DNA of 27,633 bases. Source: a virus. The stretch lies in IMG/VR virus record IMGVR_UViG_3300021139_000110, positions 1 through 27,633 of that record. The stretch is one strand, 5' to 3'. A program made the translations under genes and the position numbers. The notes below the pieces were generated by a model. The model saw only the letters and a list, made by a program, of their open reading frames with translations, was not told the origin of the DNA and did no database searches. How positions within the stretch are numbered: the first letter of the stretch is position 1; each line of letters opens with the position of its first letter. This document shows, piece by piece, positions 17,272 to 26,365 of this stretch.

Positions 17272-17493
17272 TTACAATAAATTAGATAAAGAAGTCATAC
17301 CTTGTTGAGGCTGCGAAACCATTGGATTTATCTGCTGAGGCTGTTGTTGATTTTGTGGTTGTGGAGCAGCCTTTTTTTGTGGCATATCGTACCACTCAGG
17401 CATATTGTAATTTTCGTCTTGGTAAAAATGCTGATGATTTGGAAATTGCTCCAAATAATCTTCCATTCCTAGTCCATTTTCTGATGTAGGCAT
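17272..17493 (-). CDS. Small Gln/Pro-rich protein, unknown
   Basis: This 73-aa protein starts at a TAATG overlap with the GP88-like gene. The N-terminal half is acidic and aromatic (MEDYLEQF...FYQDENYNMPEWYDMPQ); the C-terminal half is Gln/Pro-rich and probably disordered (PQPQNQQQPQQINPMVSQPQ). I recognise no family. An 89-nt untranslated gap separates it from the scaffold gene, the longest non-coding stretch in the capsid block apart from the terminator region. It could be a short assembly adaptor, but nothing in the sequence shows this. Confidence 0.6.
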   Translation of the reverse strand: MPTSENGLGMEDYLEQFPNHQHFYQDENYNMPEWYDMPQKKAAPQPQNQQQPQQINPMVSQPQQGMTSLSNLL

Positions 17494-18677
17494 TATTTCT
17501 CCACTTCTCCGTTATTGTTGAGAATGATATTTCCACGCTTTTGTTTGGCAATACGAACTTCTTTATTCATTGCAATTGGATTGCCTTCTTCGTCACGAGC
17601 TTGTTTTCCACCTTTCATTTTGAACTGTGGATCATAGTGAACAAAAAAGCCATTAGAGTTTTTAGCTGCTGTTTTATCGCCATGAGTTGCAGCTTTGCGA
17701 GCTAGACCGACAATTACGCCTTTTTCATCTAAAGGTCTGAAATCATGCTCATCGCCACTAATTACCTTATATTTCTTACCAGTTTCTTCGTCATGAACAG
17801 TTTCAGGAATAGCTTTTGAATGACTGAATGCCATCGCTACGTTTTGACCTTGTTCTAGCTTATTTCGCATGGAATGCCAGTTTTGATGCTCGTTATCTAT
17901 ATCAACTTTAACGCCATTAACTCCTGCTGGTTGGCTTACGCCTGTAGAGCTGTAAGTTAAATGATGATTAGGAGCAACTGGTTTGCTATTATTCTTGGTG
18001 TAATCGTAAAAAGTTACATCAGGATGAGCTTCCATTAACGATTGGAACATTTTAGGATGTAGGTCAGAAAGCACGTTTAATCGCACTCCTAAATGATTTC
18101 CTTCATATTCTGCAAGCGTTTTTGCTACTTGGATTTGATCATATAATCGAGTGGCAAATTCGCGAGGATTACGCAAAAGAGCTTGCGTTTTTTTGAAATT
18201 AGCTAATCGTGGCCCTAACATTGCTTCTAAATCACGACCACCACCAAATTGGAAATATCCTCCTGAAGTCTTGCCTAGACACTCTTTTTTGCATGACTTG
18301 GAATTTGGACAAGTATTAAACTTTCCTTCTTCATAAGCAGGAGAAAGCGATAATCCAGTAGTTTCTACGCCTCTACCATCAGGTAATTCAACTGCGCCTT
18401 TACCACCAGCTTTTTGGAGCTTACGGTTTTGGCTTAATAAATCGATGACTTTGCCTTCTTTATTGCGACCAATATGCGATGCCATAACTTCAGCAGCGTT
18501 TTTACTGTTCGCTACACGCTCTTTAGTTGGTAAAGAACGATGGTATGCAATAGCTGCATCAAATTCACGCTTTAGGTCGTTAATATTAGGTTGTGGATGC
18601 TGTTTTGACAGCATTCCACGTTTTTCCATCTCTTGACGGTTAAATTCTTCCCTGTTTTTACTGGTAACTGTAGCCAT
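17493..18677 (-). CDS. GP88-family cysteine-motif protein inside the capsid operon
   Basis: This 394-aa protein has the hallmarks of the GP88 (gene product 88) domain known from mycobacteriophages and other phages. LSLSPAYEEGKFNTCPNSKS precedes a C-x5-C-x3-C cluster (Cys123, Cys129, Cys133). Further on, GVRLNVLSDLHPKMFQSLME (197-216) and HPDVTFYDYTKN (218-229) match the family's VRIHDAGDFF and DVRFYAYTK blocks. The N-terminal 90 residues are charged and helical, and the C-terminus is basic. The family has no established biochemistry known to me; three clustered cysteines suggest metal or Fe-S binding, which is inference. It starts at the portal stop (adjoining at 18677) and sits between portal and scaffold, a place where P22 has no such gene. 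Confidence 0.75.
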   Translation of the reverse strand: MATVTSKNREEFNRQEMEKRGMLSKQHPQPNINDLKREFDAAIAYHRSLPTKERVANSKNAAEVMASHIGRNKEGKVIDLLSQNRKLQKAGGKGAVELPDGRGVETTGLSLSPAYEEGKFNTCPNSKSCKKECLGKTSGGYFQFGGGRDLEAMLGPRLANFKKTQALLRNPREFATRLYDQIQVAKTLAEYEGNHLGVRLNVLSDLHPKMFQSLMEAHPDVTFYDYTKNNSKPVAPNHHLTYSSTGVSQPAGVNGVKVDIDNEHQNWHSMRNKLEQGQNVAMAFSHSKAIPETVHDEETGKKYKVISGDEHDFRPLDEKGVIVGLARKAATHGDKTAAKNSNGFFVHYDPQFKMKGGKQARDEEGNPIAMNKEVRIAKQKRGNIILNNNGEVEK

Positions 18678-22883: not shown

Positions 22884-23094
22884 TTTTAGCTTTCCTAGTG
22901 GTTGCCTTCTTTAAAGCTGGTTTTTTAACAGGAAATTCAGCTAATTTCTCTCCTTCAGGTAAATTCCATCCAAAGCTGTATTTCACTTCTAAGTTGTCGC
23001 ACTTCATTTCATGCATTTGGGTTTTATACCAACCAAAATGAGCCATTATCTTTTCAAATAATGATGCTCCATCAACTAATTCGATCTTACTCAT
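22858..23094 (-). CDS. Small protein with basic tail, unknown
   Basis: The 78-aa protein has a folded-looking N-terminal part (MSKIELVDGASLFEKIMAHF...CDNLEVKYSFGWNLPEGEKL) and a Lys/Ala/Thr-rich basic tail (KKPALKKATTRKAKNATKK), reminiscent of histone-like disordered tails that bind nucleic acid. It starts at an ATGA overlap with the GroES-like gene with an AAGGA SD, and its 3' end overlaps the 48-aa gene. I do not recognise a family. Together with the 48-aa protein it makes a pair of adjacent small basic proteins directly upstream of the packaging genes. Confidence 0.65.
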   Translation of the reverse strand: MSKIELVDGASLFEKIMAHFGWYKTQMHEMKCDNLEVKYSFGWNLPEGEKLAEFPVKKPALKKATTRKAKNATKKINH

Positions 23095-23405
23095 GCTAAT
23101 TCCTTATCTTGAATAAAACAAACGTCTTGCCAACTCATGATGAGATAGCGTTCATTATCCTCGAAATACTCAGTAAATTTCAAATATTCGTCTTTCGAGT
23201 CCTTTGCCATTGTTCCAAATCGAACAAATGATCCAACTTCTACTGGCATTGCTTCTCTACGACCATTAGGCAATTTCTTACCAGCTCCTACCGCTACTAC
23301 CGTTCCCATGTTGTCAACTTCGTTCATAACTACTTGAATTATTTGACTTTTTACTCTTTCAATTGGCTTTACTACTATTTTATCGCCCATTGGTTTCAGG
23401 TTCAT
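23091..23405 (-). CDS. GroES-like co-chaperonin (Cpn10)
   Basis: This 104-aa protein has the length and pattern of Cpn10. The start LKPMGDKIVVKP (residues 3-14) matches LKPLGDRVVVKP, and the MGTVVAVGAGKKLPNGR segment (33-49) matches the GxVxAVGxGxxxxxG core. It continues with MPVEVGSFVRFGTMA (53-67) and ends YLIMSWQDVCFI (87-98), matching YLIMREDDILAV. The mobile-loop region (about 18-32) reads VKSQIIQVVMNEVDN; IIQVV would be the GroEL-binding hydrophobic patch in place of IVL. Like T4 gp31 it could replace host GroES so that GroEL folds phage proteins, perhaps coat. It overlaps both neighbours by a few bases. The family call rests on alignment by eye; function is inferred. Confidence 0.8.
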   Translation of the reverse strand: MNLKPMGDKIVVKPIERVKSQIIQVVMNEVDNMGTVVAVGAGKKLPNGRREAMPVEVGSFVRFGTMAKDSKDEYLKFTEYFEDNERYLIMSWQDVCFIQDKELA

Positions 23406-23902: not shown

Positions 23903-23937
23903 ATGCCCAGTTCACGTCTGGGCATTTCGTTTTTTAC
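23903..23937 (+). other. Strong hairpin with T-run on plus strand
   Basis: A perfect 8-bp stem (ATGCCCAG/CTGGGCAT, 23903-23910 and 23918-23925) with a 7-nt loop lies between two minus-strand genes. The plus strand continues TTCGTTTTTT, the form of an intrinsic terminator. Plus is antisense to the operon here; on the minus strand the hairpin has no T-run. It may stop antisense transcription or act as an mRNA processing or stability element. Confidence 0.55.
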
Positions 23938-24200
23938 ATACCGTCTTGTGCGTGTTCGTAACGCTTATGGCTGTAGCACTCACGCTCACCCATATTGCCG
24001 TCATTCATTTCGCCAAGTTTGCCTTCAAAATTACCAGCATGACTCATTGGTCGGCTGCCCATAGCATCCATACGACCCATACCCATGCCACCCACCAACT
24101 TCAGCTTACGCTCTCCTGAAGCATCAGAAGCGTTAACGCCTTTAGGCTCTTTTTCGCCACTAGCGCCTTTAGTTCCCATCATTGAATCCATCTTACCCAT
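23934..24200 (-). CDS. Met/Gly-rich protein, unknown
   Basis: This 88-aa protein contains about 15 methionines and many glycines and appears disordered. A near-repeat is visible: GKMDSMMGTK (2-11) and GRMDAMGSRP (about 42-51), with GGMGMG between them and an EMNDGNMGE segment later. The C-terminus (ECYSHKRYEHAQDGM) has Cys, His and Tyr that could bind metal. I do not recognise a family. The start is preceded by AAAAGGAAATTATT, a good SD set within an inverted repeat (24211-24222). It lies between the VRR-NUC-like nuclease and the zinc/AT-hook gene. Metal handling or a host-interaction role can only be guessed. Confidence 0.6.
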   Translation of the reverse strand: MGKMDSMMGTKGASGEKEPKGVNASDASGERKLKLVGGMGMGRMDAMGSRPMSHAGNFEGKLGEMNDGNMGERECYSHKRYEHAQDGM

Positions 24201-24255: not shown

Positions 24256-24549
24256 TTATTCGCTGGAATTGTCAAGAATCTTTACTATGGTCTGAACTCC
24301 TGCTAAGTCGTGAACTCTGCAAACTGTTGAGCCTTTCCAGTTCATCATAAAAAGGTCTTGAGCGCTAGTAAACTTGGAACGCTCGGAACTCTTAATTTCG
24401 ACCAATAGTGTCTTACCGTTTTTGCCTATAACCAAATCAGGAAAGCCCATACCAATACGAGAAGTATCGAATATGCTGCAACCCAAATCTTTAAAAGCAT
24501 TTACGATCTCCTTATGGTTTGCATCGGTACGTTTAGCGTAATAGGTCAT
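24256..24549 (-). CDS. VRR-NUC / resolvase-like PD-(D/E)XK nuclease
   Basis: This 97-aa protein is a stand-alone nuclease domain of the VRR-NUC/phage resolvase type. It starts with RTDANHKEIVNAFKDLGCSI (7-26), has the conserved GFPDLVIG (35-42, Asp38), LLVEIKSSE (48-56, Glu51-x-Lys53) and FTSAQDLFMMNW (60-71, Gln64). These give the complete PD-ExK-Q set, so it is probably active on branched or structured DNA in recombination or replication intermediates. It is the first gene of the leftward transcript that starts in the divergent promoter region (24549-24616). It has no obvious SD, so translation may be weak or rely on an unstructured leader. Confidence 0.88.
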   Translation of the reverse strand: MTYYAKRTDANHKEIVNAFKDLGCSIFDTSRIGMGFPDLVIGKNGKTLLVEIKSSERSKFTSAQDLFMMNWKGSTVCRVHDLAGVQTIVKILDNSSE

Positions 24550-24577
24550 TGATTTGTAACAAATAAACGGTTAGTAT
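24549..24577 (+). promoter_or_regulatory. Candidate sigma70-type promoter for the plus-strand cassette
   Basis: TTGATT and TAGTAT are spaced by 17 nt, giving a predicted start near 24584, about 22 nt before the phosphoesterase ATG. The hexamers match consensus at 4 of 6 positions each. It overlaps the divergent leftward transcript's leader. Only in vivo start mapping would confirm it. Confidence 0.45.
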
Positions 24578-24588
24578 TCAGTAACTTT

Positions 24589-24616
24589 ATCATAAAGGAA
24601 ATGTTATGGGTTTCAA
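24589..24616 (-). promoter_or_regulatory. Candidate sigma70-type promoter for the leftward transcript
   Basis: Read on the minus strand, TTGAAA and TATGAT (5 of 6 matches each) are separated by 16 nt, with a predicted start near 24582, about 33 nt before the VRR-NUC gene. The promoter reaches into the first codons of the plus-strand phosphoesterase, so the two transcripts start back to back and may interfere with each other. Confidence 0.55.
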
Positions 24617-25583
24617 ATCTCCAGTAACAGATGAGAAGTTTATTGAAATTTGGCGCAAATTAGGAAGTCCATCTCTTGTAGGAAAAGAGATCGGAATGAA
24701 TCCAAGATCCGTAATGAATAAACGTGCAGCTATAGAAATTAAGCATAATATTCAACTTCCAACAACGAATTCTCAACGAGATCCCAAAAAGCCCAAAAAG
24801 ATTGAGCTAACTCCTCATAACGTCAGACGTGGTATTGACGTTGACAAGGTTAAACGAGTCATAGTCTTTTCAGATGCTCACTTTACCGATACAACAACCG
24901 TAGCTTTTAAAGCCTTAATTAAGATGATTAAGGAATTTAAGCCTCAAGTCATCGTATGCAATGGTGACGCATTTGACGGACAAGTATTATCCAGGTTTCC
25001 ATCGATAAATTACGACCAAAAACCAACCGTTTTACAAGAGCTTAACGCTTGTCGTTACCATCTAGATGAGATTGTTAAAAACAAACCAGCAGGATGCGAG
25101 CTGATATGGACTCTCGGAAACCATGATATGCGTTATGAATCTTGGTTAGTTAATAAAGTTCCTGAATATAGTGGAGTTGATGGTTTTAGCCTGAAATTCC
25201 ACTTCCCTGAATGGAAAACGTGCTGGAGCTACTGGATTGGAGAGCATACTGTAATCAAGCACCGTTTTAAAGGTGGAAGAACTGCTGGTTATAGCAATTT
25301 GATGGCTGCTGGCAATACAAACATAATCACAGGTCATACGCACGTTTTATGTTCTAGTCCGATTTCAAATTATCAAGGTACGTTTTGGGGAGTGCAAACT
25401 GGTTGTTTAGCAGATCCATATTCAAGCACCTTTGAGTATTGCGAGGATTCACCAAAAGATTGGCGCTCAGGCTTTGTAATGCTTTCGTTTGATCAAGGTA
25501 AAATGCTAATGCCTGAACTCATTATGGTTTCTGATGAGCAAAATGGTGAATATGAATTTCGAGGAAGTATTCACAAAGTATGA
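24606..25583 (+). CDS. Metallophosphoesterase with N-terminal HTH-like segment
   Basis: This 325-aa protein has all calcineurin-like phosphoesterase motifs: FSDAH (88-92), NGDAFDG (119-125, Asp121/Asp124), GNHD (171-174), KHR (218-220) and TGHTH (242-246). It is therefore probably an active two-metal hydrolase; relatives in phages are DNA nucleases of the SbcD/Mre11 group or phosphatases, and the substrate cannot be told from motifs. Residues about 7-47 (VTDEKFIEIWRKLGSPSLVG, then KEIGMNPRSVMNKRAAIE) resemble a helix-turn-helix, suggesting DNA contact. It is one of only two plus-strand genes, has its own promoter candidate and AGGAAATGTT SD, and overlaps the SprT-like gene by ATGA. Confidence 0.87.
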   Translation: MGFKSPVTDEKFIEIWRKLGSPSLVGKEIGMNPRSVMNKRAAIEIKHNIQLPTTNSQRDPKKPKKIELTPHNVRRGIDVDKVKRVIVFSDAHFTDTTTVAFKALIKMIKEFKPQVIVCNGDAFDGQVLSRFPSINYDQKPTVLQELNACRYHLDEIVKNKPAGCELIWTLGNHDMRYESWLVNKVPEYSGVDGFSLKFHFPEWKTCWSYWIGEHTVIKHRFKGGRTAGYSNLMAAGNTNIITGHTHVLCSSPISNYQGTFWGVQTGCLADPYSSTFEYCEDSPKDWRSGFVMLSFDQGKMLMPELIMVSDEQNGEYEFRGSIHKV

Positions 25584-25927
25584 AAATTACGCCAAAAATA
25601 CTTGAAGGAATTTACCTTACTTTAGCTAAGTGCGAACCATTTACTAAATGGGATTTGCCACCTAGCGAGTTGTGTCGTTTTGAAATAGTAGACGATCATC
25701 AAGTAATGGCAACTTATGAGTTTGATGAAGCAATGGCAAAGCCTCATATCTTTTGCATATCTAAAGCTCGTTGTGGATTTTTTGATACCGTTGTCAGATC
25801 GATGGCGCATGAATTAATTCATTGCAGCAGACATAAATCAGGTAAATGGAACTTGCACGATGCTACTTTCAAAAGGCGCAAAATGCTCGTTGGAGCTTGT
25901 CTTGGGTTTGATGGTCACGAATTGTAA
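25580..25927 (+). CDS. SprT-like zinc metalloprotease
   Basis: This 115-aa protein carries HELIH (77-81), the zincin HExxH motif, followed by the segment HKSGKWNLHDATFKRR in which His93 would be the third zinc ligand, 12 residues after the second. MAHELIHxxxxxxxxxxxHxxxFxxR is the typical minigluzincin/SprT-like core; human Spartan of this wider group cuts proteins cross-linked to DNA. The N-terminal half (FEIVDDHQVMATYEFDEAMA) is the expected beta sheet. It begins at the stop of the phosphoesterase gene (ATGA), so the two are co-translated, and a hairpin terminator follows at once. Role on DNA-bound protein is inference; a simple peptidase is the alternative. Confidence 0.82.
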   Translation: MKITPKILEGIYLTLAKCEPFTKWDLPPSELCRFEIVDDHQVMATYEFDEAMAKPHIFCISKARCGFFDTVVRSMAHELIHCSRHKSGKWNLHDATFKRRKMLVGACLGFDGHEL

Positions 25928-25961
25928 AGTTATTATACTTTTATTGTAAAGTGTAATAACT
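25928..25961 (+). terminator. Long hairpin between convergent genes
   Basis: A 14-bp stem (AGTTATTATACTTT paired with AAAGTGTAATAACT, one G-T pair) has a 6-nt loop and begins one base after the SprT stop. There is no long T-run after it on the plus strand (CTATTTCG), so termination may be partial or bidirectional. The minus-strand 47-aa gene ends inside the right arm. Confidence 0.65.
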
Positions 25962-26103
25962 ATTTCGCCATAAAATACAAACCTACGTTTGCAGTCGAAT
26001 ACGACATATAGGTTATTGCCATTGGTACATTACCTTTAACAAGTTGCTCTATACCGATATAAGCATAAATCAAACCAGTAACGATAATTAGCCAACTAGA
26101 CAT
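25960..26103 (-). CDS. Two-helix small membrane protein (47 aa)
   Basis: The peptide starts MSSWLIIVTGLIYAYIGIEQ, then LVKGNVPMAITYMSYSTANV and GLYFMAK. Two hydrophobic helices (about 4-18 and 27-45) are joined by a QLVKGN turn. Very small membrane proteins of this shape are common in aquatic phages and have no assigned function. It overlaps the 3' end of the Ref-like gene by 8 nt and ends in the hairpin at 25928-25961. There is no strong SD, so it probably depends on coupling. It may act on the host membrane, but nothing shows how. Confidence 0.65.
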   Translation of the reverse strand: MSSWLIIVTGLIYAYIGIEQLVKGNVPMAITYMSYSTANVGLYFMAK

Positions 26104-26365
26104 TTAACAACTCATTGGTGAGTTCGAGGAGCTGCTCTTCTGTCGTATTGTGAGTTCTCTCCCATACTCGCCTTCCAAGCTGGTGAATTCCCAAATGGAA
26201 TCGATGATGTATTGGGCATAACCCAATTGTCGGAGCTGTAGCTCTCTTACCAGCTCTTCGTATATGGTGGATTTCGCAAGGCGTTCCTGCATTGTCTTGC
26301 TTGTAACAGAGAATGCATCCGATCTCTGATATTTTTCTGAAGCGTTCTTTTTCATTTTTAGTCAT
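26096..26365 (-). CDS. Ref-like RecA-dependent nuclease (HNH fold)
   Basis: This 89-aa protein shows GCILCYKQDNAGTPCEIHHI (16-35), then GKRATAPTIGLCPIHHRFHL (39-58) and GIHQLGRRVWE. Cys17, Cys20, Cys30 and Cys50 with His33/His34, His53/His54 and His57 give a zinc-stabilised HNH-type active site like that of the phage P1 Ref family, whose members cut DNA where RecA has paired strands. It is only the catalytic core, without the N-terminal extension of P1 Ref. The family call is by motif. A general HNH endonuclease is the alternative. The gene follows the 150-aa protein by 34 nt and overlaps the 47-aa membrane gene by 8 nt. Confidence 0.82.
   Translation of the reverse strand: MTKNEKERFRKISEIGCILCYKQDNAGTPCEIHHIRRAGKRATAPTIGLCPIHHRFHLGIHQLGRRVWERTHNTTEEQLLELTNELLNV

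Follow-up and report, generated by a model that had tools for sequence, protein, structure and literature searches.

Does a pair of overlapping phage genes that runs against everything around it merely bring two enzymes side by side, or does it encode a nuclease and a protease that act together on DNA? This question was raised by a 27.6 kb fragment of a P22-like podovirus, a 27,633-base IMG/VR virus record that was analysed over its whole length (the window) and carries P22-like portal and terminase genes. A phosphoesterase gene and a SprT-like gene (24606-25927, plus strand) are its only convincing plus-strand genes; the remaining convincing genes all lie on the minus strand, and the other long plus-strand open reading frames are antisense to minus-strand genes.

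The gene pair and its surroundings

An earlier note, made from the sequence alone, had described the two genes as an inverted, ATGA-linked cassette, which was borne out with correct coordinates, including those of a 14-bp hairpin ending at 25961 (Table 1). The ATGA overlap suggests that the two genes may be translationally coupled.

Table 1. Features of the gene pair and its flanks in the window.
Feature	Position	Strand	Details
Divergent flanking gene, Hjc/VRR-NUC-like small nuclease (context, outside the pair)	24256..24549	-	phrog_93 endonuclease 5e-8; phrog_5702 Holliday junction resolvase 3e-5
Candidate sigma70-type promoter, TTGATT-17-TAGTAT	24549..24577	+	8/12 match; TTGNNT-16/17-TANTAT recurs in relatives
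Ribosome binding site AAGGA	24595..24599	+	Sequence; similar motif at the same position in most relatives shown
Calcineurin-like metallophosphoesterase, phrog_221 type (MPE221), with N-terminal three-helix HTH-like domain; proposed nuclease	24606..25583	+	325 aa
ATGA start/stop overlap of the phosphoesterase and SprT-like genes	25580..25583	+	Sequence
Minimal SprT-like zinc metalloprotease, HExxH...H, without zinc ribbon	25580..25927	+	115 aa
AT-rich hairpin, 14-bp stem, 6-nt loop, between convergent genes	25928..25961	+	Fold z-score -5.1
Convergent flanking gene, Ref-like RecA-dependent HNH nuclease (context)	26096..26365	-	PF16786 1.6e-8

The pair is set in a recombination/resolution gene cluster, with an Hjc/RusA-like gene on one side and a Ref-like gene on the other. 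MW202674, a complete relative, has RusA in the position of the divergent nuclease, and a Ref-like HNH nuclease gene adjoins its pair as well; it encodes Erf and SSB, while no DNA polymerase is annotated. Such a setting suits a part in the processing of DNA ends or in recombination. The pair's place in this cluster and its near-universal presence among the sampled loci make the likeness to a moron, proposed for its layout, a loose one. A prophage origin was rejected, a scan of genome contigs giving just three matches, on MAG contigs.

The pair had further been credited with a promoter of its own and with a long terminal hairpin. A strict sigma70 consensus scan upstream of the pair gave no site at the 9/12 threshold; the case for the weaker 8/12 element, the -35 part of which runs into the divergent gene's start codon, comes from conservation, as the element is found upstream of relatives with either MPE221 or the DnaQ-like exonuclease Exo403 (see below) as the first gene. 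The hairpin is present and is kept in a close relative (L129), but it is not general in the family and has no good T-run, so its reading as a terminator is weak, and it was ruled out as a defining part of the unit.

Elsewhere in the window, a phage-encoded GroES-like co-chaperonin (23091-23405, minus strand; phrog_3188, 1.3e-10), which is annotated in MW202674 as well, and a GP88-family protein adjoining the portal gene (17493-18677, minus strand; PF17338, 7e-21) were recognised. An 88-aa Met/Gly-rich open reading frame without a PHROG match lies near the divergent nuclease gene (23934-24200, minus strand).

The two proteins

The calcineurin-type phosphoesterase is intact, as had been claimed. 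It matches Pfam PF00149 with 37.3 bits (cut-off 21.5; 5e-9) and phrog_221 with an E-value of 6e-31, the metal site of the calcineurin-like superfamily (D-x-H / G-D / G-N-H-D / H / G-H-x-H) is complete, and its residues D90, H92, D121, N172, H173, H219, H244 and H246 are invariant in 40/40 diverse relatives. The structural model (pLDDT 86) displays a phosphoesterase core and three N-terminal helices, confident at residues 9-19, 22-29 and 33-47. These helices agree with the HTH-like N-terminus noticed earlier, but no HTH family matched this part of the protein.

The best match of the model was archaeal PolD DP1 (Z 14.6 over 212 residues), a 3'-5' proofreading exonuclease, followed closely by Mre11/SbcD (Z 12.6-13.3) and by YfcE, Vps29 and LpxH (Z 12.6-14.1). 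With all of these within about 2 Z units of DP1, the fold alone is no proof of a nuclease. SbcD aligned with the phosphoesterase at E 2.5e-7 and appeared in the PDB sequence search at just E 0.05, and an SbcC/Rad50 ATPase was neither found among the open reading frames of the window, which is a fragment, nor annotated in the complete MW202674. The comparison with SbcD drawn in the earlier note is too specific, the model being about as near to DP1, YfcE, Vps29 and LpxH as to Mre11/SbcD. With DP1 and Mre11/SbcD the phage enzyme shares the calcineurin phosphoesterase fold and a complete metal site; unlike them, it carries the N-terminal HTH-like domain, and an SbcC/Rad50 or polymerase partner was unseen.

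For the smaller protein, the call as a SprT-like zinc protease stands. It contains the HELIH motif and a third histidine, H93, and the zinc site formed by H77, E78, H81 and H93 is invariant in 64/64 diverse SprT relatives, making up four of the eight invariant residues in all; F97 of the H-x3-F motif is nearly so. The window protein itself gave no match to Pfam PF10263, while family members in the same alignment matched Pfam SprT (L136 at 5.6e-9, L041 at 1.6e-7). In a profile comparison, the SprT alignment matched E. coli YggI weakly (probability 5%), and a PDB sequence search placed Spartan on top, weakly (E 0.015). The model (pLDDT 96.9) gave no significant PDB match with Foldseek alone; with VIA-align, human Spartan ranked first (6mdx, Z 11.5, 101/115 residues; 6mdw, Z 11.4), ahead of the next family at 9.8. 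The SprT metalloprotease fold was thus matched in the comparison with Spartan that had been suggested, over residues 40-152 of 6mdx only: the phage protein ends at residue 115, and the zinc-binding subdomain of Spartan is absent. Both genes of the pair are under purifying selection, with dN of 0.04-0.16 against a dS that is mostly above 1 and often saturated.

Conservation of the pair and exchange of its partners

Loci were fetched via one gene at a time and the partner was examined afterwards, taking the best 80 per query; as they come from related phages, largely of one freshwater phage group, the following counts are not independent observations. Conservation as neighbours had been set beforehand as a test able to refute the unit, and the pair survived it from both sides. 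A nuclease-type gene lay directly upstream in 134/136 SprT-fetched loci with upstream sequence (best 80 per query), namely MPE221 in 111, the phrog_284 phosphoesterase MPE284 in 12 and Exo403 in 11. In the reverse direction, again among the best 80 per query, a protease gene directly followed the phosphoesterase in 78/80 MPE221-fetched loci (73 SprT and 5 HslV-like, the other two having an acetyltransferase), the corresponding figures being 78/79 for Exo403 (73 SprT and 5 HslV-like) and 76/77 for MPE284 with SprT as the partner. The junctions are tight: the 4-base overlap occurs in 106/137 unique MPE221-SprT pairs and 41/45 unique Exo403-SprT pairs, and the 234 unique SprT-nuclease combinations mostly show it.

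Beyond this group of phages, most occurrences of MPE221, Exo403 and MPE284 lack SprT. Homologues in mycobacteriophage and Gordonia phage belong to the same PHROG family as the window phosphoesterase (phrog_221), but no SprT partner was present in the Gordonia, Microcystis and two Manatee Spring phages examined. The SprT genes of two GenBank phage records are unannotated (L458 3951-4292 in MW202674; L462 2989-3333 in MW202713).

The upstream position is thus occupied by three families, the phosphoesterases MPE221 and MPE284, the latter HTH-bearing and labelled 'exonuclease' in phrog_284, and Exo403, a DnaQ-like phrog_403 exonuclease with a zinc ribbon. The DNA-binding additions, HTH-like or, on Exo403, the zinc ribbon, are found on the nucleases and not on the protease. 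The downstream position mostly holds SprT, sometimes an HslV/proteasome-like protein and rarely an acetyltransferase; a GNAT acetyltransferase was seen in two loci and a methyltransferase inserted ahead of SprT once, so this is not strictly a protease slot. The HslV-like call is based on phrog_1040 (1.6e-26), on the conserved N-terminal Thr, Asp and Lys of HslV (T2/D16/K32, with AIGSG) and on a shuffle z of 6.7; profile comparison with E. coli HslV was weak, and HslV was absent among the matches of a PDB sequence search.

On the SprT tree, the upstream nuclease family changes at least 21 times when only branches with a support of at least 95 are counted, and 34 times with a cut-off of 80. More than one nuclease family is present in 12/44 SprT clusters, and SprT proteins up to 99% identical yet have different nuclease partners. 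Alternatives appear to exclude one another in near-full-length genomes: MPE221 was found in none of 8 Exo403 genomes, Exo403 in none of 21 MPE221 or HslV genomes, in which a positive control worked, and SprT in none of 10 HslV genomes (two positive controls). The HslV-like gene stands either before or after MPE221, and about one third of the HslV loci with flanking sequence have none of MPE221, MPE284 or Exo403 adjoining. In MW202713 the order is reversed, with SprT followed by MPE284 at a TAATG overlap; no IMG/VR relatives of this SprT were found. In a distant phage group, the gene that comes after SprT, holin and lysozyme is Exo403 in MW202481 and a different phosphoesterase in IMG/VR relatives.

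Near-universal pairing in the sampled loci together with partner exchange is much stronger than adjacency. That a DnaQ-like exonuclease can stand in for the phosphoesterase, and an HslV-like protein for SprT, favours 'nuclease plus protease' on grounds other than mere neighbourhood. The chief argument for a phosphoesterase that acts on nucleic acid, and for cooperation between the two products, is this repeated exchange within a functional class.

Two further arrangements were observed. Some larger phages have an HslV-like gene followed, with an overlap, by an HNH-like one, the two running against the flanking structural genes (L335 3001-3781; L356 3001-3778); this would be a further case of a protease gene beside a nuclease gene, the HNH-like call being made by eye from the motif, with no Pfam match. 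A run of phrog_2139 exonuclease, HslV-like gene and MPE221 was seen in L302 (281-2561) and about 23 similar loci.

Proposed function, alternatives and known systems

We give even chances to the reading that the pair is co-expressed as a single nuclease-protease unit whose target is protein-bound DNA. Through its HTH-like domain, the phosphoesterase would bind phage or damaged DNA, and it would then trim or cut the strand, 3'-5' exonuclease or end-nuclease activity being the most likely. The SprT protein, a minimal protease devoid of Spartan's zinc/DNA-binding subdomain, would be recruited to this site to cleave protein that is joined to the DNA or blocks it. In this way, the two might release ends or forks of phage DNA for use in recombination and packaging. 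We infer the catalytic activities of both proteins and their physical cooperation, as well as that the nuclease delivers the protease and that the substrate is a DNA-protein adduct. In other systems, SbcCD/Mre11 nucleases cut close to protein-blocked ends in cells (PMC6265447), and crosslinked protein is digested by SPRTN; crosslinks are a target of MRN as well as of SPRTN, their epistasis not being established (PMC9240642). The interpretation as a crosslink-repair or protein-stripping device, put forward in the earlier note, is partly supported. A broader proposal, which we hold more tentatively, is that of a phage adduct-clearing module with two freely exchangeable slots, one for the nuclease (either of two phosphoesterase families, or the DnaQ-like exonuclease) and one for the protease (SprT or HslV-like), in which the pairing is kept and the nuclease lends DNA binding to a stripped-down Spartan-like protease.

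The clearing of DNA-protein adducts is the best candidate mechanism, attack on host proteins or anti-restriction being possible alternatives. Under these alternatives, the protease would cut host or defence proteins bound to phage DNA, and the nuclease would attack host nucleic acid or a nucleotide signal. Iyer et al. 2021 favoured host-protein targets for the SprT proteins of jumbo phages because of their patchy distribution, and some phage calcineurin-like phosphodiesterases have been linked to the countering of nucleotide signals (PMC7824862); ArdC, with its Spartan-like metalloprotease domain, defeats type I restriction (PMC7213743), and frequent partner swapping is compatible with an arms race. 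In the sampled loci of this phage group, however, the pair is near-universal and not patchy, it is under strong purifying selection between recombination nucleases, no PADLOC family was matched, and replacement by a DnaQ-like exonuclease is hard to reconcile with the hydrolysis of cyclic nucleotides. We regard such a role in host takeover or counter-defence as the main rival reading, though a less likely one.

We consider it still less probable that the combination is a by-product of the gene pool, with a hotspot between conserved flanks collecting accessory genes and the two proteins acting separately. GNAT and methyltransferase genes do occur in the slot, nucleases are common in these phages, and even the flanking nuclease varies (Hjc-like or RusA); the number of unique combinations with their overlaps, the mutual exclusion, the reversed order in MW202713 and the looser pairing in the distant phage group speak against it. 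That the pair helps to degrade the host nucleoid for nucleotide supply seems very improbable: from general phage biology, a protease and a nuclease would suit the breaking of protein-covered host DNA, but the protease is minimal and Spartan-like, and other genes for host degradation were unrecognised in the window or MW202674.

Proteolysis-coupled repair of DNA-protein crosslinks is well studied in eukaryotes. If the adduct-clearing reading holds, one nuclease and one minimal protease in a phage would be a compact model of this repair. The natural replacement series of three nuclease and two protease families offers a ready test of which activities need the pairing, and leads to the prediction that phrog_221 proteins, annotated in phages simply as 'metallo-phosphoesterase', function as nucleases. 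Each of the families is already known, and phage SprT-like proteins are present in the literature searched (PMC12363180, PMC7824862), in which neither the nuclease-protease pair nor an interchangeable two-slot pairing was found described.

Among known systems, Spartan/SPRTN has the HExxH...H metalloprotease subdomain that was the best structural match of the SprT model; the phage protein differs in having 115 aa, 12% identity, no zinc-binding subdomain and a nuclease-type gene beside it. ArdC of plasmid R388 is likewise a Spartan-like metalloprotease tied to DNA, but it joins the protease to an ssDNA-binding domain within a single protein and has glutamate in the role of the third metal ligand, the consulted part of its description mentioning no nuclease partner (PMC7213743). 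In E. coli K-12, the SprT homologue yggI (sprT) lies directly upstream of endA (L474, 2756-4055), a SprT protein gene beside an endonuclease gene; unlike the phage pair, these are separated by a 94-base gap, the SprT protein is full-length with a zinc ribbon, and the nuclease is unrelated.
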